A stretch of DNA of 64,000 nt. It comes from an uncultured Christensenella sp. (GTDB lineage: Bacteria > Bacillota > Clostridia > Christensenellales > Pumilibacteraceae). Every line of letters starts with the position of its first letter. Position 1 is the stretch's first letter. The stretch covers positions 55,046 to 119,045 of the forward strand of contig CATLHE010000006.1 in the NCBI GenBank assembly GCA_949948895.1, given 5' to 3'. Under the pieces are notes generated by a model. That model was given only the letters and a program-made list of their open reading frames with translations, was not told where the DNA came from and made no database searches. Positions 11,701-39,416 of this stretch are shown piece after piece. The position numbers were made by a program, and so were the translations under genes.

Positions 11701-14189
11701 GTGTCGGAACGTTTAAGATTTTCGACCGCGCCGACCTTAACGGCTCGCTGTTCAACGATTCCGATATCGACGATAAGGTCGAAATAGAGGGCTTCTCGGC
11801 GACCGATGCTACCGACAGCTCGTACGTCGAGGCGCTTAAGAACGCGCCGAGAACGCTCGATTGGCGCGCAGACGGCGCACAGGGCAAGGATCGCGCGTTT
11901 ACCGTTACGGTAGATAATGCGGCGGGCACGCTCAGCATAGAGATAAATCGCCGCATGGACGAGATAATAACCGTGACGGGCGAGGACGGCAAGCTCAAGA
12001 CCAAGTATGCCGAATCCGTTTCGTTCCCGCTTATCATAACCGGCTATGACACCGCCGGCAAGAAAGCGGAAACGGTTATCCGCATTACCGTTGTCAACTC
12101 GCCGATAAGCGCCAAGGACGATTATTCGTGGCAGGAGGGCGGTTCCAACGGCGTCGGGTATTCGTTTATACGCAACGCTTACGCTACGTACGATAACGAG
12201 TATATCCTCAATGCGAGCGTGACATTCGACGACGATCTTATAATCAAGTTCGACGACTTTCTTGTCGACAAGGACTATATCAAAAACACCAATAACGATT
12301 CGTTCGTGCTAGTCGAGGGCAGTCATAAAGTTCCGTACTCGTACTTGTTGGATAAACCGCTCAAGGCAGTGTACTACGAAGACGAGACTTACGGCGATCC
12401 TCTCGACCTTGCTACCGTTACGCCCATATACGAGGGCAACGGCACGGGCGCGCAGCTCAGGTATTCGGGTATCAAGATCCATGCCGAGACCACCTCGCGC
12501 GAACGTACCGGGTCTTTGTACCTTTGCATAATGGACAGATCGTCGGATACGACCTACGTCGAGACGGGCGTATACATTCAGCTCAACGTGACAGTCATGA
12601 ACGACGCGCCGTATATTCTAGACGGTATGGACGGCACCGAAGAGAACATTCTCGGCTCGGACAGCGTTACCGAACCTAGGATGTACCGCATCGGTAATTA
12701 CGTCAACGATAAAAACTCGTCCGACTATGCGGATATGACCGATCCCGACGCCGATCCCGACTCGTCCACTTACCTTCGTATCTATTCCGTAGCGTATCTG
12801 GATTATACCGATATCTGGTCGACGCCTGCCGCAAACCTCAGCGGCGGAGTGGTCGCAGACGATTCTTCGCTTCTGTTTGAAGTCAGTTATGACGTAAACG
12901 ATACGAACGATCAATACCTGCAGACGTTTATGATAAGACCCAAAGTCGGGTTCTACGGCTCGGGTGAAGTGGAAATAACGGTTTGCGACGGCAATATAAA
13001 CGTTAACCTCGACACCGAGTTTGTAACTTTCCGCATAAAAGTGAACATTGTATACGATCCGAACGATATCTCGGCGTTTAACGGTGTGTCCACGGCGCGC
13101 GGAAAAACGCAGATAATCACTATCGACAGGCTTATACCCGACGTCGATAATACGTTTGAAGGCATTGCATCGTCTCATGCGGGCGCGGACAGCGCGAACA
13201 ACATGCCGTCCAAAAACGCAGACAAGTTTAATCCCGCGTCGTGGTACGTGCTTAAATCGGTCACGCTTTCCGCCGATGCGGAGGGCTATGCCGAGATCAC
13301 GCAAACGAGCGACAGCGAATGGTCGTTGCACGCGCTTGTGGAAACGGCTCAAGCCAAGCGCATCAATATCACTTATGCGCTTAAAGCCGACGAGACCGCG
13401 CTGTACGAAGGGTTCTTCATGTTAAGCGTTACGCCAAACCTTCAGCCGTTGTTGCTGTACAGGCGCATGGTGTTTGAGCGGTATCCTGCCGACGAGACGG
13501 TCAACGTAATGCATCATCTTAATTCCAACAATACCGCGTACTTAAGCGCGACGCAGTTGTTTGAAGATCCCGAACAGGATGAACTCACGTTTATTTCCGT
13601 CAAGTCCAATAAGTCGGCGCTTGTCAGCGCAAGCCTTGCGCATGAAAACGAGCACTTGGCTATACGCTTTACGGCGCGCGGCTCGGCGGATATTACGGTG
13701 ACTATCTCCGACGAGACGGGCAAGAACTACTCGTACGTGATAACAGTCGTCAACGAGGACCTTGCGGCGCCCAGCTTCTGGACACGGTTGTTGGCGAGCT
13801 TCGAGTCCAATAAAGTGATGTGGGCGATTATCTTGGGGCTCGTTATCCTCGCGATAATCATACTCATAATCATCATCGCCGTCGTGAGAAAACGCAAACG
13901 CGCAAGGGAAGAGCTGGAAGCGCTTCTGGTTTCCGAAATGGAGATAGAAGAGCAGATGCTCAAGCTCGCGGGCGGACCCGCGCCTACCGGCTATCAGAGC
14001 TACGGTTACTTGCAGTCCGCGCCCGGGCAGACAGTCGTCGACCCGAACATGCTTCTCGGCGCAGGCACGCCCAACCCGACCATGCCCGAGTTTGCGCTTC
14101 CGCCCACGCCTAACGATCCTATGGCGCAGCAACAGCAGCAACAACAGCAGAATCAGCCGACGGATACCAATCCGTACGACGGCATGTAG
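2754..14189 (+). CDS. Giant membrane-anchored surface protein with Gly-rich and Ig/cadherin-like repeats
   Basis: 3811 aa, the largest gene in the window. A hydrophobic N-terminal segment (about residues 16-40, RIAILAASVIIAVALAV) acts as signal or anchor. Residues about 110-260 are Gly-rich with ECWGA and GGGGASHIV motifs, like the glycine-rich domain of ALK-type receptors and bacterial surface proteins. The rest is a series of beta-sandwich-like modules whose boundaries show a recurring 'V-N-x-x-P' motif (VINTPPV, VINTAPT, SIANTAPT, IINQAPT, VMNDAPY), typical of bacterial Ig-like or cadherin-like arrays. A C-terminal transmembrane helix (about 3688-3712) is followed by an RKRKRARE stop-transfer and a cytoplasmic tail with a nine-Gln run. 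There is no LPxTG motif, so it is membrane-anchored and not sortase-attached. A role in adhesion or surface architecture is likely; ligand unknown. Confidence 0.9.
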   Translation: MNNNTENNKITGKAKRIAILAASVIIAVALAVTCALCINVGSPKRGEVGDADGGGIRTTRSVTAPTSGVGVNYLIDLINNGDIGYNGDYVDFPYNGGFYWINLPKGNIKMECWGAASANGVKGAYATMTMNIQYVVTVSLCVGGAGNGKNGGYNGGGNGTSYGGGGASHIVHNNQNLLLKNASMGNMVLIGGGAGGSSTSTSSNGVTGQGSNGGTSGGGAGYPSGAAGYSGTSWINTGAWGWTSTNTSVSYGQRSSNGLIRFTLGTGHNSAPTQKTLSYTNRTLTTGGSSAKLTVHSYDFAQDSDYSNISGGNVNNVDFMNKNDVSGYTGAKMYVDAACTVTADDYFTYSFSDSRTMNITEFKKLPRAGDGKANQDNKIRIYMQVKDRYPSGNAYIVRYFDISYAAMTAGKKDDTSGTLKNGNAYSYKVGASTTQNSAEVFSAGKIYSPSAIGTWALCVMKPIQKNTTFTVTAAELMAVTGPSGVDTTKFAAYLVPSAANTSLFSYSGTSVAIRTGNGSTSATGYTSITIKAINASPQWQKVTFTLYIVEKTSSRGANYEPIGITYAGNIKTLEVNFLMDNTRPILKDGVNNVVNVGIGASVNINLKDYFYDRDGEITTSTHSILGIDVPSYEFVQLDKYGNVVSTADKAGASSGNSYYNLSGSLSSSLTSGTSNTPTGFKSNIAVGATATTAQVNEAFVKYSYTGTTLTLTGLRASYSQYASDRTNRTAYTGGNTTTATGAATVLNPGHFYILIHIKDNIEAADAGIWLPIAITVGSPDGLAPVNTGSSTGSVSGQGVVSAMPSAEGSAGAGDASSFYFVPMAVNIGGTQHPVAAKVVDNGVEIDSSRWQPLALDGDNFTTATGTASWSGKLNEFLTITSTANQVQNLLLASSSSVRTTRYATVSEVDVYIPSSYFGGRVAVGSSSSVNAATGVNTIMLTADGAFYKTRGLKITLESSTMNRYVYATVNLADSRSTTVSVEIAIKVNNSDPTVSATAATFKGAAGAESSYDNGTVPTLTYKVPMYSTFMLTPYDLVNDINLTEAGAAYPAGGFTLNGLAGKYANGKFTVDGAAATGEQAVTPLFDTSVYGGAYKTSLQQFFTNIDKTSTATKLAATKGFNVTKTQTVIPNDRLFFARNSDTATDAFTFAPTGYNAFTYAASGTDGYIDCMFGDRIEFATGGEKALDFVLFSTKTRTPRTAEFTVTVRDRFGNVAITVCVKIDVINTPPVMKDNLKATELAVTPVSDGNVTLKSAVVHPTDVMTDKDGDEVTFMMSRGIIVARGAGIEFSDFTADAADPDTNKLLYDADGHLLTDYYVSASLDSANDITVTAIGSTKNIEEGVFVYFFVSDPRGGVSLGWKQVEVINTAPTFNTSTENGFSTADRLWSIESATVADTTRARYIAGSEAAFASLRTDKNAAAIDVKLIASDADKLQGVLLSQRGKLETSYVNYNATKLTNSAETYDYDDAVPDVVTTASGFADGSPAAVWLYKRSQTESGELISAMQNVTPTLMFLVKGEWYDRDELLTAIASGADITADDCFDADGRFIVSDWALRVVATNPFLDDNGKQYNMGIAFSLRDDARYGGDTAGLDTAYDSDRSKAQTTVSGTLNEIVYMFISNTGIITKDEFSKYENYYVVVGNDGNPYVIYNDGTSVQATAYNVGTVDGVAGSYSYPGTIEIPGNTDGSASYETVYVPMSYFGLSNTLASPDSSTHEVVYEPSFVAYDVRTGDADKMYDRGNIDDITRALTISDGIDSWGGESGRPLNDNPYVTVDAVTYTDAQTPAFGTGISAPYYNNLLAVPDVGFNDSAYTSLASGNVLYLDDQASKLPEHRFGLTFTKKSFRTGVNNLTFTVKLALSANATGTGVNTTTAYNNDSKNLRSVSVALSIGNSPIDLVSGRSVDVAGSSDPSGKLLEYDAERGTYYTDVELTTSQSASYLLVRDGGDSDPLDALNRTYRRLYYTDRDIELDGAKSTEYRDYAYFSSDSITGLSSAQDKRVKELNADGDALANAANKTNARAQNSVLNYYGVGSVADIASSVQPNGGYHGYNSYFNASMAENSRAINISASRKTYINLTALPGIVDVLKTDPEYGADFAAFGTWDSTKTYGGLTYKQLNAIYESRGFVLKYSSASPSDDLHDSNALVPDSETLSAYYPLKVLIYDDRGAGWDEATFVSMEFRISIANTAPTIKAGIGKVVNGKREYTLSLASGDSTVLNLYDFVQDPDILVFSSGNTRMLATEDDFGKATSQLVRETGDYLESVYKYAYEPYADAESIQAALLAGELGVTSYTETRSDVIMYTETTSGSVSNTTIPSDNKLWFKVNRRTTDDKGNSIDTFRFTIAFRDNHGENSCTEDITFVVKIINQAPTVTTIVRDITMHANDTFTVLPAYYDTFIGGADYVQSDKQYDTTDEGTVNELPKEGSPAYLNSLTYSSYFNKRSTRAAFDYSKITSDVYDYGVEDSEFAFNTAPTEIGGVNLGYLGIATDDAPWRMRFSKVPDDMPAYIQVTSQNITTLEGSGDIRRGAMAVLVRAVGACKNLPITFTLIDGEGGTVTYTLNITIVSTPPTPRNPADQIDRQLLAASKLEGIKTTEGYEYGVFRTFIIPSGGAEGVSVSLQNIGSDNKKTAYKDVTITLKNVATDIDGQSQIDNMRLFNGGEFTVNGVAMEAPDPDDGISYDDGRVVSDYFYITTANGGGAFTIHATGYDMFRDFEELTFSIADSGNPIDENKLTVTIQVYTVYSDMTNPTVAGMTPDQYNKYLGGANEVHVKGVDAFNGYGEFANSLGVNVPSEYAFIKMQGANGNDGNEGKSPIVDPDVSKAGAQSYATNVYAFINNDGSPLSADEIKEFFVRDSETGTFAIRSDKKLLAKDYLIGGVTTNGEPVSATYLEKLNAVNRFADFSIALDGASISFTPKTATLNTKVMMYVEAQKRLGTARKVLRSDDSIASGSLFRLVVDDSAPRAVNQTGKEDYNAEFTGSKGSVGTFKIFDRADLNGSLFNDSDIDDKVEIEGFSATDATDSSYVEALKNAPRTLDWRADGAQGKDRAFTVTVDNAAGTLSIEINRRMDEIITVTGEDGKLKTKYAESVSFPLIITGYDTAGKKAETVIRITVVNSPISAKDDYSWQEGGSNGVGYSFIRNAYATYDNEYILNASVTFDDDLIIKFDDFLVDKDYIKNTNNDSFVLVEGSHKVPYSYLLDKPLKAVYYEDETYGDPLDLATVTPIYEGNGTGAQLRYSGIKIHAETTSRERTGSLYLCIMDRSSDTTYVETGVYIQLNVTVMNDAPYILDGMDGTEENILGSDSVTEPRMYRIGNYVNDKNSSDYADMTDPDADPDSSTYLRIYSVAYLDYTDIWSTPAANLSGGVVADDSSLLFEVSYDVNDTNDQYLQTFMIRPKVGFYGSGEVEITVCDGNINVNLDTEFVTFRIKVNIVYDPNDISAFNGVSTARGKTQIITIDRLIPDVDNTFEGIASSHAGADSANNMPSKNADKFNPASWYVLKSVTLSADAEGYAEITQTSDSEWSLHALVETAQAKRINITYALKADETALYEGFFMLSVTPNLQPLLLYRRMVFERYPADETVNVMHHLNSNNTAYLSATQLFEDPEQDELTFISVKSNKSALVSASLAHENEHLAIRFTARGSADITVTISDETGKNYSYVITVVNEDLAAPSFWTRLLASFESNKVMWAIILGLVILAIIILIIIIAVVRKRKRAREELEALLVSEMEIEEQMLKLAGGPAPTGYQSYGYLQSAPGQTVVDPNMLLGAGTPNPTMPEFALPPTPNDPMAQQQQQQQQNQPTDTNPYDGM

Positions 14190-15556: not shown

Positions 15557-16933
15557 TTAGCCTATCATTATGTTTGCGGACGGATATTTGATCTTAGCCG
15601 TGTCGCGTTTTACGAATATCATGCCTATACTCAGAGGTCCGAGCCTGCCTATCGTCATTATTACGGCGAGTATAGCGAGCGCGGCGGGCGAGTAGGGGTG
15701 CGCCGCCGCAAGCGTTGTAGAGCCCATGGAAAGCCCCGTCGTGGTGAACGCCGTTATCGTCTCGAAAAAGTTTGCGCCAACCGCTACGTTGGGGTCTGTG
15801 GCGGAAATTATCATAACGCCGACCAAAACGCACATGGCGGCTATAAAAGTCACCGCCACGGCGCGCAAGCCGTTTTTAAGGCTTATACTGCGCTTGTGGA
15901 TGACCAGCTCGTTTTTGCCGCGCAGTCCCGATACGCCCATGAGAAGAAGTATGGCAAACGTGGTCGTCTTGATACCGCCGCCGGTACTGCACGGCGACGC
16001 GCCTACAAACATCAGAATGCATGTGAACACTTTGCCCGACGACGAAAGCAGGTTTTGGTCTACCGACGAAAATCCCGCCGTCGAGCTTGCCATTACCGAC
16101 TGAAACATGCTGTTTAAAAGCTTCTCGCCGCCGTTCATGCCGTCAAACGCTTTCGAGTTGAATTCCGACGCGAGAAAAAAGAACGTGCCGCACGTCATTA
16201 TTATAAGTGTCGCTATCAGCACTATCTTGGAATGAAGCGCATACTTGCGCCAGCGGAATTTGTTTTTGATAACGTCGTTGATTACGGGGAAGCCGAACGC
16301 GCCGAGTATGGCGAGAAACGCTATAATGATGAGCACGCCGGCGTTTCCGTTGTAGTCCGATAAAGAACCGTACGGATTGCCGACCGTAGCCATTACGTCG
16401 AATCCCGCATTGCAAAATGCCGATACGGAATTGAATACTGCTTGCCATATACCGTAAGCGCCGTTTTTAACTACGAAAAACGGCAAAAGCATAAGCGCGC
16501 CCGCAAGCTCGATGATGCCCGTCATTATGGCGATATTGCGCACCAATCGCACTACGCCTTTTATGTGGTCTTGACCGAGAGCTTCGGAGATGGCGATGCG
16601 GTCTTTCAGCGTTATGCGCTTTCGTATGAGAATAAATATAAAAGTAGCAAACGTCATGAACCCGAGCCCGCCGAACTGAACGAGTATGAAAAGTACGGCT
16701 TGCCCGAACCCGGTGAGCGACAGCGCGGTCGGCTTTATGATGAGACCTGTGCCGCAAACGCCGTTTGTAGCCCAGAATATGGCGTCTATGAACCGCATCC
16801 ACTTGCCGTCGGTATTGGAGGCGGGAAGGGCAAGCAAAAGCGCGCCGACAAGCATTACGGCTAAAAATCCGAGTAATACAAAAAGCATAGGCGGCATGTG
16901 AAGCCGTTTTATCGATCGTCTTTCCCGTTTCAT
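15557..16933 (-). CDS. ktrB: KtrB/TrkH-type potassium uptake channel subunit
   Basis: 458 aa integral membrane protein of the SKT (Trk/Ktr/HKT) superfamily, with four MPM repeats and their pore-loop segments GVCGTGL, AFCNAGFD, SPCSTGGG and FTTTGLSMG. It imports K+ (possibly Na+-coupled) when gated by KtrA. The start at 16933 is chosen over the track start because ATG overlaps the ispDF stop as ATGA and is preceded by GGAG at 8-nt spacing, so translation is probably coupled to ispDF. Confidence 0.93.
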   Translation of the reverse strand: MKRERRSIKRLHMPPMLFVLLGFLAVMLVGALLLALPASNTDGKWMRFIDAIFWATNGVCGTGLIIKPTALSLTGFGQAVLFILVQFGGLGFMTFATFIFILIRKRITLKDRIAISEALGQDHIKGVVRLVRNIAIMTGIIELAGALMLLPFFVVKNGAYGIWQAVFNSVSAFCNAGFDVMATVGNPYGSLSDYNGNAGVLIIIAFLAILGAFGFPVINDVIKNKFRWRKYALHSKIVLIATLIIMTCGTFFFLASEFNSKAFDGMNGGEKLLNSMFQSVMASSTAGFSSVDQNLLSSSGKVFTCILMFVGASPCSTGGGIKTTTFAILLLMGVSGLRGKNELVIHKRSISLKNGLRAVAVTFIAAMCVLVGVMIISATDPNVAVGANFFETITAFTTTGLSMGSTTLAAAHPYSPAALAILAVIMTIGRLGPLSIGMIFVKRDTAKIKYPSANIMIG

Positions 16934-18090
16934 TTTTGCTCCGATAATATGCAAGACGCGCTTGCGGCAATAGCTTTGCCTTTGCCGACAATGCCCATCA
17001 TCTCGGTAGTCGTAGCCGATACGTTTATGCGCTCCGTTTCGGTGTGCAGGCGAGCGGCGAGCGTTTCGCGTATGTTCTTTATATAACTTGCCAACTTGGG
17101 CTTTTGCGCGATAATTACTGCGGAAATGTTTTGTATGCGGTATTTGCGCTCGGTCAAAGCTTCGAGCACGTTATCCAACAGTTTAAGCGACGAAACGTTT
17201 AACAGCGCGGCGTCGTTGTCTGGGAACAAAACCCCGATATCGGGCAGTCCTGCCGCGGATAACAGCGCGTCCATGATAGCGTGCGTGAGAACGTCGGCGT
17301 CCGAATGTCCGTCAAGACCTTTGTCGTAGTTTATCTCGACGCCGCCGAGGATAAGCGGGCGGTTTTTAACAAGCCTGTGCACGTCGAAGCCTATGCCGAT
17401 CTTCGAGCCGACGGGCGCAAACCTTATAAGATCGTACCCCGTAGTTATTTTGATATTGTCATAAGCCCCTTCGACAATGTGCGGAGAGAACCCTGCGCGT
17501 TCGTAAACTTCCGCGTCGTCAGTGTATTCGCCGTCGGCGTCGGCGTACGCTTTTAATATCTCCGCGTACTTAAAAGTTTGCGGTGTCTGCATATTATAGA
17601 GTTTGCGTCTGTCGAGCGAGTGCACGACAGTATCGCCCGACACTTCTTTGATAGTATCGGTCGCGGGAACGGCGAGAACGCCGCTGCCATGCTTTGCTGC
17701 CGATTCGACGGAAGCGTCGATAAGTTCCGAACGTATAAAAGGTCGCGCGCCGTCGTGAATGACTACTATATCGCAGTCCTTTATGGCTTTTAAACCGCTT
17801 TTGACGCTTTCCGCCCGCGACGCGCCGCCTTTGCATACGGCGACAGCGGGGTAGGACTTTGTCAGTTCCTTTATCTGCGACAGTTCGTCTTGCGCGGCGA
17901 CTAGTACGAGCCTTTTGACGCAGGACTCGGAGAAAGCGTCGAGAACGTGTTCCAGAACGGTCTTTTGCCCGAGATGGTAAAACACTTTATTATATGAAAG
18001 CCCCGTTCGTTCGCCTTTGCCCGCGCACAGTATGACTGCGGCAATGCGGTCGGTGCTACTTAACGCCGTCGTTTCAGTTGACGATCTCAT
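16930..18090 (-). CDS. ispDF: Bifunctional IspD/IspF (MEP isoprenoid pathway)
   Basis: 386 aa fusion. Residues about 15-225 are IspD (4-diphosphocytidyl-2C-methyl-D-erythritol synthase), with LCAGKGERTG, GGASRAESV and HDGARPFI. Residues about 230-386 are IspF (MECDP synthase), with zinc motif FDVHRL, HSDADVLTHA and TTTEMMG. The two activities bracket the missing IspE step, as in other natural IspDF fusions. It overlaps the rqcP stop by 17 bp and the ktrB start by 4 bp, making an unusual operon with potassium uptake genes. The ATG has a GGAGG site about 12 nt upstream, slightly far. Confidence 0.93.
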   Translation of the reverse strand: MRSSTETTALSSTDRIAAVILCAGKGERTGLSYNKVFYHLGQKTVLEHVLDAFSESCVKRLVLVAAQDELSQIKELTKSYPAVAVCKGGASRAESVKSGLKAIKDCDIVVIHDGARPFIRSELIDASVESAAKHGSGVLAVPATDTIKEVSGDTVVHSLDRRKLYNMQTPQTFKYAEILKAYADADGEYTDDAEVYERAGFSPHIVEGAYDNIKITTGYDLIRFAPVGSKIGIGFDVHRLVKNRPLILGGVEINYDKGLDGHSDADVLTHAIMDALLSAAGLPDIGVLFPDNDAALLNVSSLKLLDNVLEALTERKYRIQNISAVIIAQKPKLASYIKNIRETLAARLHTETERINVSATTTEMMGIVGKGKAIAASASCILSEQK

Positions 18091-18714: not shown

Positions 18715-20226
<1,512 letters not shown>

Positions 20227-27750: not shown

Positions 27751-29280
27751 CTATTTGCGCGCTCTTGCTGTTTTTTTGCGGCGCGGTTTAGGCTCGGTCA
27801 CGCTTTTATTCTTTTTATTTTCTTTGCGCGTGCGTATGACCGCGGCAAAATCGACCGCGCCGAACACTACGGACAGAAGCGCCATAAAGCACGCGCCGCC
27901 TATCGCCGCTATTATCATAGAAAATATGTTGTCGGGCAGAATGGCGTTTACATATTCGGTAAACTGCCAAGCGGGGTAGCTCGCGGCGAGACAGATAACG
28001 AGCGGGCGGATAAAAGTGAGTTTACAGCCCGACCGACGCTTTATGTCGATCACGTCCAGAACGGACGAGACGGTAAGGCTTACGCCAAACGCAATCATGA
28101 AAACGTCTATGGTAAAGCGCGAGTAAAAGCAGAATGATATTATATACATTACCGCCGCGCCGATGAGATAGTTTATGAGCGATTTCTTTTCGAGGTCGAG
28201 TGAGTTGAGCATTGACGACGCTATGTTTTCAAACGACAGCGGCAGTAAGAGCCACGCCGATTTTTTGAGGAACATGCCCGCGTCGGTATTGTCGTAAATG
28301 AGCGTTCCGAGGTCGTCGCCAAGCGCGCCGTACACAGGCAAGACTATCGCGGCAATGATTATCGAGAAAGTGAGCGCGCTCTCTATCTGCGAGCACATGC
28401 TTTTTTTGTCGCCGGCGGCGTAAGCCTGCGATAGCGTGGGTATCATGACAAACGCCAAAGACCCGACGACGGTTATCGGGAGATACAACAGCGGTAACGC
28501 CATGCCTACGCACGAGCCGTATATGTACATCGATTGGTCGGAGTTGAGCCCCGTGGACATCAATAGGAAGGGCACTGCTACGGCTATAATGTAGTTGTTT
28601 ATGCTTGAAGTCGTGCGCGACAGCGTTATCGGCACGGAAGAAGCCATAAGCGGCTTGAAATGCGCTTTGGGCGCGGACAGCTTGCGCTTGCCCGCGAAAT
28701 AGAATATCGCGCACGCGCCCGCCGATACCGCGCACGCGACCGTCATGGAAAGCGCTACCGCGGCGTTCTTGTCGCGGAAGAGCGTTATGAATACTACGCA
28801 CACCACTATGCGCGCGATCTGTTCTATGAGCTCGACAAGGCTGACAGAGGTGAATTTCTTTTCGCCCCACAGCACGCCGCGGAACGCCGAGTATACTCCC
28901 GAAAATACGAGCGCGGGCAGCATTATCATGACGAGCGTCATGGACTGCGCATCGGCAAACAGCGCGCCTATCGGCTTATTGAGCGCGAGCACCGCGCCGC
29001 ATATCAGTAGCGCCGTTACTATCTCCACGATGAGCGCCGCCGAACAGACCCCGCCGCTTTGCGCTCTTCCGTTTTTTGCGGTCAGCTTTGACACGACGAG
29101 CGGTATGCCCGAGGTCAAAAGCGTAAGCAGTACGAAAAAGAATGAGAGCGCAACGGAGTAGATACCCATGCCGACGGCGCCTATCTCGCGCGAGAGATAG
29201 ATCTTGAAAAGGAATCCGAGCGTGCGCTCGGTCACCGTAAACGCCGTCAGCGTTATTACTGCTTTTGCCATCGATTTCAT
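27751..29280 (-). CDS. SpoVB/MurJ-like polysaccharide or lipid flippase (MOP superfamily)
   Basis: 509 aa polytopic protein with roughly 12-14 membrane helices. The N-terminus (TERTLGFLFKIYLSREIGA) and the SGIPLVVSKLTAKNGR segment match the SpoVB/MATE-like branch of the MOP flippase superfamily; members move lipid-linked oligosaccharides across the membrane, including spore-cortex or cell-wall precursors. A basic tail (KPRRKKTARARK) ends the protein. No ribosome site precedes the ATG and a TAGAAT lies 7 nt upstream, another possible leaderless start. Exact substrate unknown; murJ or spoVB assignment is not certain. Confidence 0.8.
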   Translation of the reverse strand: MKSMAKAVITLTAFTVTERTLGFLFKIYLSREIGAVGMGIYSVALSFFFVLLTLLTSGIPLVVSKLTAKNGRAQSGGVCSAALIVEIVTALLICGAVLALNKPIGALFADAQSMTLVMIMLPALVFSGVYSAFRGVLWGEKKFTSVSLVELIEQIARIVVCVVFITLFRDKNAAVALSMTVACAVSAGACAIFYFAGKRKLSAPKAHFKPLMASSVPITLSRTTSSINNYIIAVAVPFLLMSTGLNSDQSMYIYGSCVGMALPLLYLPITVVGSLAFVMIPTLSQAYAAGDKKSMCSQIESALTFSIIIAAIVLPVYGALGDDLGTLIYDNTDAGMFLKKSAWLLLPLSFENIASSMLNSLDLEKKSLINYLIGAAVMYIISFCFYSRFTIDVFMIAFGVSLTVSSVLDVIDIKRRSGCKLTFIRPLVICLAASYPAWQFTEYVNAILPDNIFSMIIAAIGGACFMALLSVVFGAVDFAAVIRTRKENKKNKSVTEPKPRRKKTARARK

Positions 29281-29462: not shown

Positions 29463-31949
29463 GTGGAAGTTTACTGTCGTAAAAACAATATTCTGCGTCG
29501 GCTGCTTCGCGCCGCAGTAATAGCCTTTGCGGCGTTACTGCTCGTTTTGGGTTTTATCGGTTGCGCGGCAAAACCCGACGTATCGTTCCGCGTGACGACT
29601 ATCGAGCTGAAAGTGGGCGACGAGCGCGATATTTTGCCGTATGCGGTTTTTTCGCCCGCTACGACGGATAATAAAAAACTTCAACTATCTACAGACGGAG
29701 ACTGTGTTACTATAGACGGCACGACGCTCAAAGCGGTCAAGCCCGGCACGGCGAGAGTCACCGCGCGGTCCGCGGGCGGCAGCGCCGTTTTGACTGTTTC
29801 GGTCGAGTACCGCGCCGCGCATAATCTTTCCGTCTCGCATACGGGAAACACGGTGCAAACGTCGGAAAACGGAAAATTCGATAAAGTCGTGTTTACCGCG
29901 CTGTCCGACGATTACATAGACCCCGAAACGGTGATCGAGTGGTCGGTCAACGGTGAACGCCGCGCGGTAGGGCACGTTTTTGAATTTACGCCCGACGGGT
30001 ACGGCGAATTTTGTATAGTTGCGGCGATAGGCGATCTTTCGGCGGAGCGCACGGTGTCGGTCTACAAAAAAATAAAAGCCGTCGGCAAGGCGGTAGGCGA
30101 GCTCGAGCAGTTTCGCAACTATTCGCCCGTTTGTTTTACTGTGAGCGAGGTCGTCGATCCGATGAATCCGCGCTCGGTATATGAGTGGCGCGTAAACGGC
30201 AACGTTACGTCGCGTTCGGCAAGGTATGAGTTTATTCCGCGCGCCGTGGGCGAGTACGAGGTCGAGCTTTACGTAAACGGTATCAAGCGCGACATAAACG
30301 GAAAACAGTCGGTAAAGATAGTATCGGTCGGCGACCGCGCGCCCGAATGTCGCGTCGAGTTTGATAGCTATGGAACGTTTGTCGTATGGGACGACCGCGC
30401 GGCGGCAAGAAGCGTCGCCGTCAAATCGCCGAGCGGCGGGACGGTCGTTTACAGCCGATCGGATGTAAGACATTCTTACAGGTTTTCGGACGGAACGTTT
30501 GACGCGAACGGGATAATTTCCGTTTGCGCCGCCGATCCCGATTCGTACGAGATAACGGTCACGGCGGACTCCGTTGGCGAAACTTTCGAGTTTGTGCAAT
30601 ATCCGTCGTCCGCCGCGCAGTATATAGCGCAAACGATACTGTGCGAAAATTCGTTTATAACGAGCGCCGAGGACTGCGCAAAGTTTGTCGCGGAGCTCTA
30701 TGCCTGCGGCAGGACTTCGGCGAGAGCGTATCTCGCGCGCGAGATAACAAACAGCGCCGACAAGGTAGAACAAACGCTTTCTTCCGCGCGTGCGGTGCTT
30801 GCAGTACTTAGCGTGAGCGCGACGGTAAGCGTTTCGGGCGAGTATATGGATATCAGGTTCGAGCCTTATAAAAACGCTCCTACCGTTTCTGTCGAGAGCA
30901 GAGTGCGGCAAATGCCTACGCCGCTTCCGCATATAGCGACCGCAGACCGCCGACCCGATAGCTATACTTTTGCGATAGAACGGGCGAAAAGAAGCGTCGA
31001 GGCGGAAAACACCGAGCAGTTGCTTATTGCCGTAATGAACGGCGTTCGCCCGATAGTAAAAGAAAACAGCGCGGCAGAAAAGGCATATAAACTGTGTAAG
31101 AACGTATTGGCGGGCGCGACCGGCATTATATCAAAAGATCATACCGACGCCGAAAAAGTGCATGCCATACATGATTGGTTGCAGTTTGTAACGCGTCGCG
31201 AGACTGCGGGCGGCGGAACGTCCGCGGATTTTTTGGAGGGCGTGTTCGGCGGTAACGTCGTAGCGGGCGGCGCCGTTTCGAGCTTGGGCATGTCCAAGGC
31301 GTTTGCTCTTATGTGCGGCATGGAAGGCATACCGTGCAAGATAGCCGTACGATACGGACAGGACGGACCGAACGCTTATTATTGGAACAAGGTCGAGCTT
31401 GACGGACTTTGGTACAACGTAGACGCGTACGGCGGCGAGGTAGCGCCCGTCGGAAAAAATGCCGAGTATCTGTCGCATTCGCGGCTGTTGTTGAGTGACG
31501 CAGCCATGGAAGAACTCGGGCTCGTTTCGGATGCGTCTATGCCCGAGGCGTTTGACGACGGCGGAGCGGAAATCATACGTAAACGCATACAAGGCGGCGT
31601 TTATTACGACGTGTATATCGATAAAGAAGAGGCGCGCGACTACGATCAAGTAAAGGCGGTTGTGTTCGAAGCTTTTTCGGAACAGTCGGAAAACGTGTTC
31701 ACGCTGCGCACGCCGCAAGGTACCACGACGTACAGTATAGACGCTTACGGCGTCGAGATCGTGCTCGGATTCGAGCTCGACGAGGAAGAAGTGCAAGCAG
31801 TGACGGCAAATGTGCGCCGCGCGGCGGCTGAGTATTATGAAAAAGTGCTCGGTCATGATCTCGATCTGTCGTCGGTCGGCGTGCAGATCGAAGGGCAAGT
31901 ATTGATAGCGGGCGTACAAAAACCGCGAAACATTTCAGTTGAAGCATAG
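29463..31949 (+). CDS. Lipoprotein with BIG2 domain and degenerate transglutaminase-like domain
   Basis: 828 aa. Signal peptide with lipobox FIGC (Cys34). An Ig-like BIG2 domain (about 40-115, VKPGTARVTAR) is followed by two beta-sandwich segments containing paired 'V-N-G' motifs (EWSVNGERR, EWRVNGNV). The C-terminal part (about 540-670) has the transglutaminase-like fold with AIHDWLQFV. The catalytic triad is broken: aligned with the downstream paralog, Cys is Ser607, His is Tyr639, and only Asp654 remains. It is probably a non-catalytic binding protein at the membrane surface. GTG start at the predicted transcription start, with no ribosome site; the next gene begins 10 bp after its stop. 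Confidence 0.85.
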   Translation: MEVYCRKNNILRRLLRAAVIAFAALLLVLGFIGCAAKPDVSFRVTTIELKVGDERDILPYAVFSPATTDNKKLQLSTDGDCVTIDGTTLKAVKPGTARVTARSAGGSAVLTVSVEYRAAHNLSVSHTGNTVQTSENGKFDKVVFTALSDDYIDPETVIEWSVNGERRAVGHVFEFTPDGYGEFCIVAAIGDLSAERTVSVYKKIKAVGKAVGELEQFRNYSPVCFTVSEVVDPMNPRSVYEWRVNGNVTSRSARYEFIPRAVGEYEVELYVNGIKRDINGKQSVKIVSVGDRAPECRVEFDSYGTFVVWDDRAAARSVAVKSPSGGTVVYSRSDVRHSYRFSDGTFDANGIISVCAADPDSYEITVTADSVGETFEFVQYPSSAAQYIAQTILCENSFITSAEDCAKFVAELYACGRTSARAYLAREITNSADKVEQTLSSARAVLAVLSVSATVSVSGEYMDIRFEPYKNAPTVSVESRVRQMPTPLPHIATADRRPDSYTFAIERAKRSVEAENTEQLLIAVMNGVRPIVKENSAAEKAYKLCKNVLAGATGIISKDHTDAEKVHAIHDWLQFVTRRETAGGGTSADFLEGVFGGNVVAGGAVSSLGMSKAFALMCGMEGIPCKIAVRYGQDGPNAYYWNKVELDGLWYNVDAYGGEVAPVGKNAEYLSHSRLLLSDAAMEELGLVSDASMPEAFDDGGAEIIRKRIQGGVYYDVYIDKEEARDYDQVKAVVFEAFSEQSENVFTLRTPQGTTTYSIDAYGVEIVLGFELDEEEVQAVTANVRRAAAEYYEKVLGHDLDLSSVGVQIEGQVLIAGVQKPRNISVEA

Positions 31950-31959
31950 AGGTGCGATT

Positions 31960-34575
31960 ATGTCTAAAAAATACACGTTTAAAAGAATAACGGCTTTTAT
32001 CTTGGCGGCGGTCATGATAACGCTGTCTTTCGGTGCGCTCATCGGCTGTTCGCTGTTTGACAGGGATCCCGACGGCGAAGTCGAGTTTTCAAAGAGTAAG
32101 ATCGAGCTGAACGTGGGCGACAAGTACGATCTTGCGCATATTACTTTCGTAGACTACGGCTCTTGTACGTACAGCTCGTCCGATCCTTCGGTAGCGTCGG
32201 TGTCGGGCTCTTTGTTAACGGCAAAGTCCGTAGGCACGGCGGTCATAACGGCGAGAGTGCGGCGTAGCGGCAACGAGGCAAAACTGCGCGTTACCGTATT
32301 GGAAGAAGACGGATTTACCCTCGGCGTTTCGGGCTCTTTGGTGCAGACTATGGGCGCTACGGAAAACGTGGAATTTACCGTTTCGGCTACCGGTATGGCG
32401 GCAGGTTACAACGTGTCCTGGTATGTAAGCGGCGAGTATCAATGCTCGTTGGCGCCGAGCATTCCGTATACATTTATTCCCGTCGCTGCGGGAGCGTTTG
32501 TTATTACCGCATCAAGCGAATACGGCGATTACGAGGCATCGGAGACCGTTCGCGTGTATTACGACGCGGACGCTTCGGGCAGTTACGATGGCGAAATATA
32601 CCAGACCGAAGCGCCGTATACGCCCGTTAAACTTACCGCATGGGCGGAAGAGCACGCGTTCAATCCGATAGACCCGTATATTGAGTGGTTTGTAGACGGC
32701 GCGCGCGTTTACGGCGGAACGGCAACCGAATACGAATATTATCCGACGGCGGGCAAGCATACTGTGACATTAAAAGTCAACGGCAAAACGCGCGATATCG
32801 ACGGGCAAAGTTCGCTCGACATCGTATGCGTGGGAAGTATTGTGCCGAGCGACATAAGCGTGGTTTACGACAACGTATATCCGCACGTATATGTGCGCTA
32901 TGACGCCGTAGGCTCGGCGGCGGTGGAGATTACGTCGCCGATAGGAAACGCAGTCACCGTCAGTCAAATCGATCGCCCCGAACTTTTCGATGAAAACGGC
33001 TTCGACGCAGGCGAGTATATCAATGTGTGCGCAAGCTCTTCGAGCGTGGGCGACTATAAGATCCGCGTCAAGTCGCTCGGCGACGGCGTCGCGTTGACCG
33101 AGAGCGCGTATACCGACCGTTACACGTTTACGCAGCTTCCGCAAAACGCGGAGAAGTACTTACGCGATCTGTATTTAGACAGAGACCATTATATAACGTC
33201 GGACGAAGAATACGTCAATCTGTTCGAGTATTACGTTATTAACAGGACGAAGATCGCAAATGCCGAGGTGTCGTTCGAATGCTATATAGGTTACCAATCC
33301 GACCTCACTAACGAGGAACTTTGGAATTCCGCTTTTCAAATAGGCGCGACGAGCGGTTCGTATACCGGCAAGGGTATTACAAAAACGGGCAACGTGATCA
33401 AGACCAACTTTAAGGTCAGCACGGTAAACAGTCCGACGCGTCAAACGTATTCTAGGTATTCGTCGGAAGACGATTATTCCAAACAGCTTCATGCCAATAT
33501 ACCGCATATCAATTACGACGAGGATAAATATCGTCCGAGCAATCATGTTTTCCCCATTGACGAGTTGGAACGCACTCAGAGCGTGACGTATACGGATGAA
33601 CTGTATTTGGCGGCGGAAAACAATACGCGCCCCGTACCTACCTCGGGCTCGGCTGCCGACGCCGTTTATCGGATTGCACGAGATATTTTGCGTCAGATAG
33701 TTACCGACGATATGAGCGACGCGCAAAAAGCCCATGCAATATACGATTGGATAATGTGGCAGGTAACGTATGATACTCCCGCAACGGAAGTGACTAAAAA
33801 CGGCGAGGCGTATTCTGCATACTATATGGAAGGCGTGTTCGGCGACGGTGTTACGCCCATTCGCGGCGTAACGTACGACCCGTACGCGGTATGCGACGGC
33901 ATGAGCAAAGCATACTCGTTGCTTTGCAATATCGAGGGTATTCCCTGTATGCGCGTGTCGGGTATGGCGGGAAGCTACGCCGCGTTTGCCGGCGGGCATG
34001 CATGGAATAAAGTCATGCTTGACGGTGAGTGGTATATAGTCGACTGCACTTGGGGTGACAGCACTATCGATTTGAGACTCGGGTACGCCTATGAGTCGTA
34101 TGAGTGCGCTTTACACGATTGGCTGTTTGTCACGGACGATTATGCGAACGACACCCATTACGAACCGTATTCTTACGCTTACGTAAAGCCGTCTTGGGGC
34201 GAGTGCAAAGTGAGATATGCGCCCAAAACGGCGAGTAAAGCTTACGACGTTTACAAAGATATGACTTATAACGGCGTAAAGATCGACTGTCGGTTGTTTG
34301 ACGACGGAAGCGCCGAAGACCGTTACTACGAAATAGTAACGCAGTTTATGAACGCATACGTTCCGAGGAGTACGATACGCGTGCCCGGTTACAAGGACTG
34401 CGTTTATACGCTGGACTACGAGGCGTTGGAGATCAAGCTCGAATCGGAGTACGTTTTGACGGAATCACAGTTTAGAAACATAGCGACAGCCGCCGTGCTC
34501 GCGATAAGACCTACCGCAGACGTAGAAATTGTGATAAGCGAAACGATAGCGCTTGTGCTTGTAAGCGACTTATAA
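31960..34575 (+). CDS. Lipoprotein with BIG2 domain and intact transglutaminase-like domain
   Basis: 871 aa from the ATG with GAGGTG upstream (track start is 7 codons too early). Lipobox LIGC gives Cys30. The layout repeats the previous gene: BIG2 domain (VKSVGTAVITARV-like segment), two PKD/Ig-like segments (EWFVDGARVYGG), then a transglutaminase-like cysteine hydrolase domain. The catalytic set is complete: AVCDGMSKAY (Cys645), GGHAWNKV (His680), WYIVDCTW (Asp695). Such extracellular domains in Clostridia cleave or crosslink proteins or peptides, usually at the cell surface. Tandem duplication followed by loss of activity in the upstream copy is the likely history. Confidence 0.88.
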   Translation: MSKKYTFKRITAFILAAVMITLSFGALIGCSLFDRDPDGEVEFSKSKIELNVGDKYDLAHITFVDYGSCTYSSSDPSVASVSGSLLTAKSVGTAVITARVRRSGNEAKLRVTVLEEDGFTLGVSGSLVQTMGATENVEFTVSATGMAAGYNVSWYVSGEYQCSLAPSIPYTFIPVAAGAFVITASSEYGDYEASETVRVYYDADASGSYDGEIYQTEAPYTPVKLTAWAEEHAFNPIDPYIEWFVDGARVYGGTATEYEYYPTAGKHTVTLKVNGKTRDIDGQSSLDIVCVGSIVPSDISVVYDNVYPHVYVRYDAVGSAAVEITSPIGNAVTVSQIDRPELFDENGFDAGEYINVCASSSSVGDYKIRVKSLGDGVALTESAYTDRYTFTQLPQNAEKYLRDLYLDRDHYITSDEEYVNLFEYYVINRTKIANAEVSFECYIGYQSDLTNEELWNSAFQIGATSGSYTGKGITKTGNVIKTNFKVSTVNSPTRQTYSRYSSEDDYSKQLHANIPHINYDEDKYRPSNHVFPIDELERTQSVTYTDELYLAAENNTRPVPTSGSAADAVYRIARDILRQIVTDDMSDAQKAHAIYDWIMWQVTYDTPATEVTKNGEAYSAYYMEGVFGDGVTPIRGVTYDPYAVCDGMSKAYSLLCNIEGIPCMRVSGMAGSYAAFAGGHAWNKVMLDGEWYIVDCTWGDSTIDLRLGYAYESYECALHDWLFVTDDYANDTHYEPYSYAYVKPSWGECKVRYAPKTASKAYDVYKDMTYNGVKIDCRLFDDGSAEDRYYEIVTQFMNAYVPRSTIRVPGYKDCVYTLDYEALEIKLESEYVLTESQFRNIATAAVLAIRPTADVEIVISETIALVLVSDL

Positions 34576-34626: not shown

Positions 34627-35376
34627 TTATTTAAGTTTGGAAAATTCGGATAAAAACGCGCAGGCGGGCTCGCGCCAGCACGTTTCGTCGTGTATGCCCG
34701 TGTTGTCTACGGCAAGCGTCAGATCTTTAATGCCTTTATTGCGAAGCGCGTCGGTCAGTTTAAACGCGTCGGCAACGAACATATTTTCGACCTGCTCGCC
34801 GTATTCGGGTTTTCCCACTCGTTCGGACCCGCCCGTATATATTCGGTAGAGCGCAGACGCGTCGAACTGTGCGGCGTTCAAGAATCGGTCGAACGCGTCG
34901 CCGCTTAAAAACAGCGGGGTGGAAAACATTCCGTACGCCGAGAATTTGGCGGGTTTTCGCGCCGCAAAACAGAGCGTGGCTATCGCGCCTGCGGACGACC
35001 CGAGCATGGCGTAACGCCCGTATCCGAATCTTTTGTCCAAGTACGGAAGGATAATGCTTTCCAAGTAATCGAAGTAGACTTCGGCGTTGCCGCCGAAGTT
35101 GGGAAACCCGTACTTTTCGAGCTCGCTCGGAAAAGGGATATAATCGTTCAGCCTCGTCGTCGTCGAGTCGATACCGATTATCGCCACGTTTTTTATGCCG
35201 AGCGCTCTGACCGCGTCAAGCATGCGCCAGCTTTTGCCGTAAGACGCGTCGGCGTCGTCAAACGCGTTTTGTCCGTCGTGCATGATGAGCGCGCGGTCGG
35301 CGTGCTTGGGCGAGTATATGCGTACGGTCCGCGCAAACGCGCCCTTCGATAAAACTGCTATCTCGTATTTTCTCAA
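34627..35376 (-). CDS. Alpha/beta-hydrolase esterase (enterochelin esterase-like family)
   Basis: 249 aa, no signal peptide. MHDGQNAFDD and the nucleophile elbow MLGSSAGAIAT (GxSxG) mark the esterase family related to antigen 85 and enterochelin esterases; a C-terminal GIHDETCW gives the His and an acidic residue (YTGGSER region) is available. Broad acyl- or carbohydrate-esterase activity is expected; substrate unknown. TTG start with CGGAG upstream. Transcribed alone. Confidence 0.8.
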   Translation of the reverse strand: MRKYEIAVLSKGAFARTVRIYSPKHADRALIMHDGQNAFDDADASYGKSWRMLDAVRALGIKNVAIIGIDSTTTRLNDYIPFPSELEKYGFPNFGGNAEVYFDYLESIILPYLDKRFGYGRYAMLGSSAGAIATLCFAARKPAKFSAYGMFSTPLFLSGDAFDRFLNAAQFDASALYRIYTGGSERVGKPEYGEQVENMFVADAFKLTDALRNKGIKDLTLAVDNTGIHDETCWREPACAFLSEFSKLK

Positions 35377-35528: not shown

Positions 35529-36881
35529 ATGAAAATACAATTGGATAGCAAATGCGCCGAGTTTATTTCGGGTCTCGGCGAAAACGTGTACGTAGTCGGC
35601 GGCTACGTGCGTAATGCGCTGTGCGGTTTCGGAACGACCGATATAGATATAGCCGGTCCTATCCCCGCGCAAGCGTTAAAGCTTCCGCCCAAAACCTCCA
35701 TGACTATGGTGAACCACCGAATGGGCACGGCTCAGATAGCGTTTGACGATATCAAATTGGAGTATACGCCCTTTCGCGTCGAGGTATACAATCCCGGCGG
35801 CGAGCATACGCCCGCGCAGGTGTATTTTACGACCGATATGATAGCCGACGCGGAACGGCGCGATTTTACATGCAACGCCGTTTATTACGACGTTAAGCGC
35901 GACGAGATAATCGATCCGCTCGGCGGCGTTCGCGATTGCGAAGCAAAGATACTTCGCGGCTGTCATAAACGCGTGTTCGAGTCCGACGGGCTCAGGCTGT
36001 TGCGGCTTGCGCGGCTTGCCGCCCAGCTCGGCTTTAAGATAGAGGGCGAGACGGCGATGGCGGCAAAAGCCAACGCCAACCAATTGGAAGATATCACTAC
36101 CGAGAGAAAGCGCGCCGAGCTCGACAAGATATTATGCGCGGACGCCGCAAACGGCATAGCAAACGCGCAGTATCGCGGATTGAGGTTGTTGAAACAGCTC
36201 GATATTTTGCGCAACATAATCCCCGAGCTTGCCGAGTGCGACGGGCTCGCTCAGCCCGAGGCGTATCATAAGTACGACGTTCTCGAACATTCTTTCCAAT
36301 GCACGAGGTACGTTCCGCCGACGGTTACGATGCGGCTTGCCGCGCTGTTGCACGACGTGGGAAAGTCGTACTGTATGAAGAATTTCGGAAACTTCCACGG
36401 TCACGAACGCAGTTCGGAGATCACGGCGCGGATCGTTCTCAATCGCTTGCGCTATCCCAAAGACGTTATAGAGCAAGTGGCAAGGCTTTGCCGTCTGCAT
36501 ATGTACGACATGCGCGGCGACGCACGCGAATCAAAAGTTCGATTGTTTGTCGCCAAAAATTACGATATCGTCGATAAGCTTGTAACGCTTATCCGCGCGG
36601 ATAAACGCGCTACAGGCATGTGCGATCCCGAAACGATAGACGCGCCGCACCGCTTTGAAACCGCTATGGACCAAATGATAAAAGAGGGCGCGCCCATACT
36701 TAAAAAGTCGCTCAAGATATCGGGTAAAGAGCTTGCCGATATGGGGTTCGAGGGTGAAGCGATATCTCTTGCGCTCGAAACGCTGTGGCGCGAGTGCGTA
36801 GTAAATCCGTCGCTCAATAATGTGGAATGGTTGCGTAAAATGGCTGAAAAACTGCTCGATCAAAAGTCTGACGGTAAGTAA
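35529..36881 (+). CDS. cca: CCA-adding tRNA nucleotidyltransferase with HD domain
   Basis: 450 aa. The head domain has VYVVGGYVRNAL and the catalytic TTDIDIA motif (two Asp), then the RRDFTCNAV segment that binds the tRNA/nucleotide, and the neck region SDGLRLLRLARLAAQLGF. A C-terminal HD domain (LAALLHDVGKS, about residue 270) follows. Its role is synthesis or repair of the tRNA 3' CCA end; the HD domain may remove 2',3' phosphates. The start codon sits at the predicted transcription start with no Shine-Dalgarno. Poly(A) polymerase is the main alternative. Confidence 0.88.
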   Translation: MKIQLDSKCAEFISGLGENVYVVGGYVRNALCGFGTTDIDIAGPIPAQALKLPPKTSMTMVNHRMGTAQIAFDDIKLEYTPFRVEVYNPGGEHTPAQVYFTTDMIADAERRDFTCNAVYYDVKRDEIIDPLGGVRDCEAKILRGCHKRVFESDGLRLLRLARLAAQLGFKIEGETAMAAKANANQLEDITTERKRAELDKILCADAANGIANAQYRGLRLLKQLDILRNIIPELAECDGLAQPEAYHKYDVLEHSFQCTRYVPPTVTMRLAALLHDVGKSYCMKNFGNFHGHERSSEITARIVLNRLRYPKDVIEQVARLCRLHMYDMRGDARESKVRLFVAKNYDIVDKLVTLIRADKRATGMCDPETIDAPHRFETAMDQMIKEGAPILKKSLKISGKELADMGFEGEAISLALETLWRECVVNPSLNNVEWLRKMAEKLLDQKSDGK

Positions 36882-38315: not shown

Positions 38316-39416
38316 ATGAATTGGTATGGCTTTATCATAGCTCTCGGAATAGTGATATGTGTCGTTATTGCGTATTTCACGGCGAAGCATAGAGGAATAG
38401 AAGGCGACGTTGTCATCGACGTTGTCATTTTGGGCTTACCGTTTGTTATTTTGGGACTGCGCACGTATTACGTCATATTCGATACCATAGCGGGCGGGCA
38501 TTGGACTTTTAAAAAGTTTATAGGGCTCGAAGACGGCGGGCTGGAAGGGCTTGCCATATACGGCGGTCTGATAGGCGTTTTGGTCGCCGCGGTAGTCTAC
38601 GTCATGTGGAAGCGCCGCAAAAAGAATCCCATAAACAAGCGCATCTCGTACATGCAGCTTTTGGATCTCGTGTTTACGTTTATGATCCTCGGTCAGGCGA
38701 TAGGGCGTTGGGGCAACTTCGCCAACGAGGAAGCTTACGGATACCTCATTACCAACCCGTCGCTCAAATGGTTCCCGATGGGCGTCGAAATCAACGGGGA
38801 TTGGTATTACGCCACGTTCTTCTATGAGTCCATGTGGAACATAGTCGGTTTTGCGCTTTTATACTTTTTGTACATGGGCAAGCGCAAGAGTTTCGATGGT
38901 TTCGTATTTTCGTGTTATTGCATATATTACGGTATAGGCAGGTCGTGGATAGAAGGCATGCGTTCGGACAGTCTTTGGCTCGTTCCGCCTTCCGTAGCTG
39001 GCGTAGGCGGTCAGCCGGACGTCGGCGGCGTGCGCGTCAGTCAGCTCGTAAGCATTATCATGATACTCTTTGGCGTGGCGTATATTATCGCGCATATCAT
39101 ACGCGCCAAAAAAGCGGGCAAAAAGATATTTATTTTCGTAAAGCAAGATAAGCTTAACGCCGATTATTTCGGCTATGAAAAGACCAAGCTCGCCGTTCCC
39201 ATGCCCGATATCAAGTTTTGGAAGGACCGTAATAAAAAGAGCGGCGACGGTATAATCGTAGACAACAACGGCGTCGCTATCAAGATCGACGAAGAAGTAA
39301 ACGACGACGGGACCGAAAAAGGACGCGTAGCGTCCGACGGCGGCGGGACGTCGTCGAGCGTCAAAGCGGCGCAACAGGCGGCGGAGGAGAACTATGAAGA
39401 CAGATGGGACGACTGA
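38316..39416 (+). CDS. lgt: Prolipoprotein diacylglyceryl transferase
   Basis: 366 aa. About seven membrane helices; signature WYGFIIALG at the N-terminus, an HRGIEGD-type loop, GGLEGLAIYGGLIG, and GQAIGRWGNFANEEAYG, where the Arg-containing Lgt motif lies. It transfers diacylglycerol from phosphatidylglycerol to the lipobox Cys, so it serves the lipoproteins encoded in this window. A charged cytoplasmic extension of about 95 residues follows the last helix, unusual for Lgt. The N-terminus is shorter than usual. Start is at the predicted transcription start, leaderless. Confidence 0.92.
   Translation: MNWYGFIIALGIVICVVIAYFTAKHRGIEGDVVIDVVILGLPFVILGLRTYYVIFDTIAGGHWTFKKFIGLEDGGLEGLAIYGGLIGVLVAAVVYVMWKRRKKNPINKRISYMQLLDLVFTFMILGQAIGRWGNFANEEAYGYLITNPSLKWFPMGVEINGDWYYATFFYESMWNIVGFALLYFLYMGKRKSFDGFVFSCYCIYYGIGRSWIEGMRSDSLWLVPPSVAGVGGQPDVGGVRVSQLVSIIMILFGVAYIIAHIIRAKKAGKKIFIFVKQDKLNADYFGYEKTKLAVPMPDIKFWKDRNKKSGDGIIVDNNGVAIKIDEEVNDDGTEKGRVASDGGGTSSSVKAAQQAAEENYEDRWDD

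Follow-up and report, generated by a model that had tools for sequence, protein, structure and literature searches.

Pseudoenzymes are usually studied singly. Erythrocyte band 4.2 (EPB42) and human menin, for example, have structural or scaffold roles. Both are inactive members of the transglutaminase (TG)-like fold (PMC10318531), and the fungal protein Cyk3 carries a TG-like domain that lacks the catalytic cysteine and that binds and stimulates the chitin synthase Chs2 (PMC4758748). Bacterial envelopes contain pseudo-peptidases that activate cell-wall enzymes, namely the degenerate LytM factors EnvC, NlpD and DipM; the last works via a conserved groove (PMC10336132). A search of the open-access literature returned no paper joining the terms "transglutaminase-like" and "pseudoenzyme" with bacterial lipoproteins; nor did it turn up a bacterial surface pair in which one transglutaminase lipoprotein is active and the other dead. 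As evidence of absence this is weak, since the search covered open papers. Dead TG folds are already known, and a bacterial, operon-coupled pair of dead and active copies looks like a new form of them.

Here we describe such a pair in a 64-kb window, the whole stretch of DNA analyzed, from a member of the genus Anaerocaecibacter (family Pumilibacteraceae; genome size 1.86 Mb). Positions 29463-34575 hold two open reading frames (ORFs), U (upstream) and D (downstream), and their initial annotation as tandem TG-fold lipoproteins holds: each bears a lipobox, and each exceeds the curated 23-bit cut-off of Pfam PF01841 (Transglut_core), with 27.6 bits for U and 42.9 bits for D. The U gene (29463..31949, + strand) has a GTG start and encodes 828 residues in an open frame. 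The D gene (31960..34575, + strand) encodes 871 residues from an ATG at 31960, which is the likely start; the TTG at 31939 chosen by the ORF caller overlaps U. As in bacterial lipoproteins, a hydrophobic N-terminal helix is followed by the lipobox cysteine (Cys34 in U, Cys30 in D), and this cysteine is kept in essentially all orthologues for which the N terminus is available. The two proteins share 31% identity over approximately 700 residues (E = 6e-68).

AlphaFold models give U and D the same layout: a signal helix with lipobox, four Ig-like domains, an alpha/beta domain, the TG domain and a C-terminal alpha/beta domain. In U, these lie at approximately 36-380 (Ig-like), 381-500 (alpha/beta), 504-665 (dead TG) and 666-822 (C-terminal), and D follows the same order. 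Pfam returns weak Ig-like or PKD-like matches upstream of the TG core in both. The models have mean pLDDT values of 88 (U) and 87.5 (D) and pTM values of 0.80 and 0.66, respectively; the lower pTM of D suggests that its domain arrangement is uncertain or flexible, while the individual domain folds are predicted with confidence. In the models, helix 607-620 of U begins at Ser607, and the counterpart helix 645-658 of D begins at Cys645.

The nearest solved structure is that of Streptococcus pyogenes TglA (PDB 9CRN), which has the TG fold and the Cys/His/Asp motif context of D (E = 2.9e-14 against the D profile; rank 18 by fold in a Foldseek search of the PDB). The sequence match covers the TG region only. 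D has a four-Ig stalk and a C-terminal domain in addition, and U is without the Cys and His. The open-access search found no relevant paper on TglA. When the U and D models were searched against the PDB with Foldseek, the Ig stalks dominated the matches, so that, apart from the hit of D to 9CRN, the search is hardly informative on the TG head. Proteins of the MAG6410 family of transglutaminase-related lipoproteins (NF045980) have a related TG segment and, like U and D, are lipoproteins; however, D and U score 60 and 23 bits against a family cut-off of 450 bits, and the match is confined to the TG segment. The described inactive proteins differ from U in other respects. Cyk3 is eukaryotic and intracellular, keeps its His and Asp, and has a partner that is not a sister transglutaminase. 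EPB42 and menin are likewise eukaryotic, are not operon-paired and are not surface lipoproteins. EnvC, NlpD and DipM resemble the role proposed below for U, but have a LAS metallopeptidase fold and target amidases or transglycosylases rather than a tandem active sister.

We examined the catalytic triad in an alignment of U orthologues from all 20 genomes of the genus, D, and 20 single-copy homologues from other genera. The residue numbers given initially are exact: the D triad is Cys645/His680/Asp695, and the corresponding columns in U hold Ser607, Tyr639 and Asp654 (codons computed from the residue numbers as 31281..31283 for Ser607 and 31377..31379 for Tyr639, + strand). The Cys-His-Asp triad expected of an active enzyme is found in 18 of the 19 D copies read (Cys in 19/19; His and Asp readable in 18 and intact in all 18), and it is absent from U, where the Cys column contains Ser in 16 orthologues, Asp in two, Arg in one and Gly in one. 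The His column of U contains His in a single orthologue, with Tyr, Gly, Asn, Phe or Arg in the other 19; Asp is kept in 20/20. In the HMM-fitted alignment, one U (L084) seems to retain the His, but MAFFT shifts this His by one residue and puts Asn in the catalytic column. All 20 single-copy homologues have the complete triad, and the Cys is retained in upwards of 40 homologues outside the genus. Contig homologues found independently in other lineages likewise have it in every case where the site can be read. An intact triad in the orthologues would have refuted the first reading; across the 20 genomes, none was found in U. Less general is the fold motif GMSKAF highlighted in the initial annotation, which is present in this U but particular to it; most orthologues have GAAKAF.

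In three genomes the copies lie at contig ends and are fragmentary (G008, G010 and G018), and the D of G002 runs off its contig. In one further genome (G019), U is present and the D frame is broken by a stop or frameshift shortly before the His site (L063, 5292-7849), with Arg at the His place in the downstream piece. This interruption may be an assembly error or real decay that leaves U without a working D; the draft is 84% complete.

U goes back to a TG-fold surface lipoprotein that was single-copy and able to catalyze, and that was duplicated in tandem, in place, no later than the last common ancestor of the genus. Outside the genus, we found no U-like tandem full-length copy among 74 genomes of the family or 297 genomes drawn evenly across the order. 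In other genera, one intact copy often occupies the same place, in the order flippase (divergent), TG gene, CCA transferase, VanW and Lgt; both flanks are shared in 10 of 20 outgroup neighborhoods and one flank in four more, the remainder being cut by contig ends or different. U, D and the single-copy homologues form three groups in the tree (SH-aLRT 100, 100 and 99). The tree is unrooted, and the sister relationship of U and D is drawn by parsimony from their distribution, because two full-length copies occur only in this genus and the single copy elsewhere is often in the same place. An older duplication followed by loss in other lineages would require far more events. Because the Cys is absent from every U and kept in D and in other lineages, catalysis was lost once: Cys and His disappeared in the U stem, at or before the genus ancestor, and both positions have drifted since. 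That stem is long (1.45 changes per column).

Loss of catalysis has not led to decay of the gene. Across three species pairs of differing distance, dN/dS ranges from 0.18 to 0.23 in U and from 0.15 to 0.20 in D, although the pair furthest apart is close to synonymous saturation. Divergence is faster in U than in D (mean distance 1.10 versus 0.76), and the most conserved part of U is the TG domain, at 49% mean pairwise identity versus 36-44% for the other domains of U; the TG domain of D reaches 70%. With orthologue-wide loss of catalytic residues, a retained fold and purifying selection (dN/dS near 0.2), the original reading of U as a retained full-length pseudoenzyme is strongly supported. 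To judge from its sequence, U is a true surface pseudoenzyme that purifying selection has preserved in every species. Since it stays intact under selection despite having lost its catalytic residues, U must have a useful role, which most likely is to help or steer D or to hold a target.

The residues lost in U cluster near the catalytic site (Val644, Cys645, Asp646, Arg665, Gly668, His680, Ala681, Trp682, Thr697 and Asp700 of D). Some replacements are themselves conserved among U proteins. In D numbering, these are Tyr or Phe at Ala681 and at Thr697 and an aromatic residue at Trp682, together with Gly at Trp698, Gln at Met599 and Tyr at Met585. We infer that the cleft may have been rebuilt as an aromatic-rich binding site. 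Conserved residues specific to U also span the whole protein (e.g., Arg55, Glu411, Tyr560, Gln574, Lys707 and Tyr791).

The two genes are closely linked. Only 10 bases (31950..31959, + strand) separate the U stop from the D start, and among the genus members that could be scored, nearly all have a gap of approximately -20 to +20 bases, and one has 47; this spacing suggests that the pair is co-transcribed and co-expressed. Both genes are present in 20/20 Anaerocaecibacter genomes, so that U and D show the strict co-occurrence and operon-like spacing expected of a regulatory pair. To the left lies a divergent polysaccharide/MurJ-type flippase gene (27751..29280, - strand; Pfam Polysacc_synt/MurJ and synteny), which is the left neighbor throughout the genus and in 12 of 20 outgroup neighborhoods. 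On the right, a CCA tRNA nucleotidyltransferase-type gene (35529..36881, + strand) is conserved in synteny and, like an Lgt-type (prolipoprotein diacylglyceryl transferase) gene at 38316-39416, is named by sequence character. A putative esterase gene between D and the CCA transferase (34627-35376, - strand) is found in the genus and is absent from the outgroup neighborhoods read.

The co-occurrence, the operon-tight spacing and the matched domain layout favor U as a partner of D. We put at roughly an even chance the proposal that U is a non-catalytic partner acting by substrate presentation or by switching D activity. U and D would be expressed together and exposed on the same side of the membrane, with their TG heads at equal height because they share a lipid anchor and a four-Ig stalk. 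The cleft of U could then bind the peptide or surface substrate of D and present it to the enzyme; alternatively, U could attach to D and turn the enzyme on or off, as dead LytM activators such as EnvC and DipM do for their targets. More tentatively, and with a probability we would set somewhat short of even, the two may form a surface machine in which an active TG lipoprotein stands beside an equally tall dead twin with a conserved aromatic binding site in its rebuilt cleft; the twin would choose the substrate, offer it to the enzyme or activate that enzyme. After removal of the species signal (flippase and CCA transferase), the evolutionary distances of U and D correlate with a partial r of 0.77, and no other pair tested scores as high. 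This lends support to partnership but does not decide the matter: the correlation is non-specific, as VanW and DUF3810 reach 0.54-0.63 with U or D. The main rival, which we rank after partnership and regard as possible though rather doubtful, is that U binds a peptide, glycan or cell-wall ligand independently and that its adjacency to D is a leftover of the tandem duplication. Such a function would fit the long U stem, the conserved cleft replacements and the U-specific residues conserved across the whole protein. It sits poorly with perfect co-occurrence and operon-tight spacing across 20 species, in which U without D is seen only as the one interrupted draft copy.

Other accounts of U are much less probable. 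A role as decoy, as the initial annotation had also offered, would have U divert attack from D through antigenic or phage-receptor variation, and the faster divergence of U is in keeping with it. Yet dN/dS is low, and conservation within U peaks in the TG domain, which should stand well away from the membrane anchor; a variable decoy would show the opposite. For this reason its antigenic form is disfavored, and we consider a decoy improbable. We think it more improbable still that U is an enzyme with a new nucleophile, such as Ser607, or another active site. Ser does occupy the Cys place in 16/20 orthologues next to an invariant Asp, but four species have Asp, Arg or Gly there, and the His place is changed in 19/20. 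This drift at both places argues against a serine nucleophile, and we rejected Ser607 as a substitute; moreover, the cleft segment of U showed no Cys or His that had newly become invariant. As for a decaying duplicate or a sequencing artefact, to which the loss of catalytic residues might itself point, the chance is slight in the extreme. Every complete copy has a full-length open frame, selection is purifying, and the same loss recurs in 20 independently assembled genomes, including that of a cultured strain. The frameshift decay that could have undone the first reading of U was looked for, and it is rejected by the open frames and the dN/dS values.

At this locus, the ancestral single active copy still in place in other genera, the duplicate, the loss of catalysis and the later evolution of both copies in 20 species can be read together. 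The U/D pair is present in a cultured strain from the mouse gut, Anaerocaecibacter muris CLA-AA-M11 (locus L089), which makes the role of a dead transglutaminase beside its active sister directly testable. Such work would give a first handle on what the widespread clostridial Ig-stalk transglutaminase lipoproteins do. Elsewhere in the window genome, a third TG lipoprotein of 395 residues (L133, 1370-2554; G000 contig C7) has Cys, His and Asp intact and is found across the genus and in other genera, and a fourth TG ORF of 1033 residues on contig C12 also keeps the triad. Among the TG proteins of this genome, only U is dead.

Other features of the window include a complete 16S rRNA gene (18715-20226, + strand). 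Rfam and ARAGORN searches of the 64 kb found no 23S, 5S or tRNA gene, which suggests that the 16S gene stands apart from the other genes of the rRNA operon. An ORF of 3811 residues (2754-14189, + strand) has a hydrophobic N-terminal stretch, one C-terminal transmembrane segment near residue 3692 and a Gln-rich tail. It is rich in Thr, Ala, Ser and Gly, has no Pfam match at E 0.001, and looks like a giant surface protein. Finally, the gene at 16930-18090 (- strand) encodes a fused IspD-IspF, a bifunctional isoprenoid biosynthesis enzyme (Pfam IspD and YgbB).
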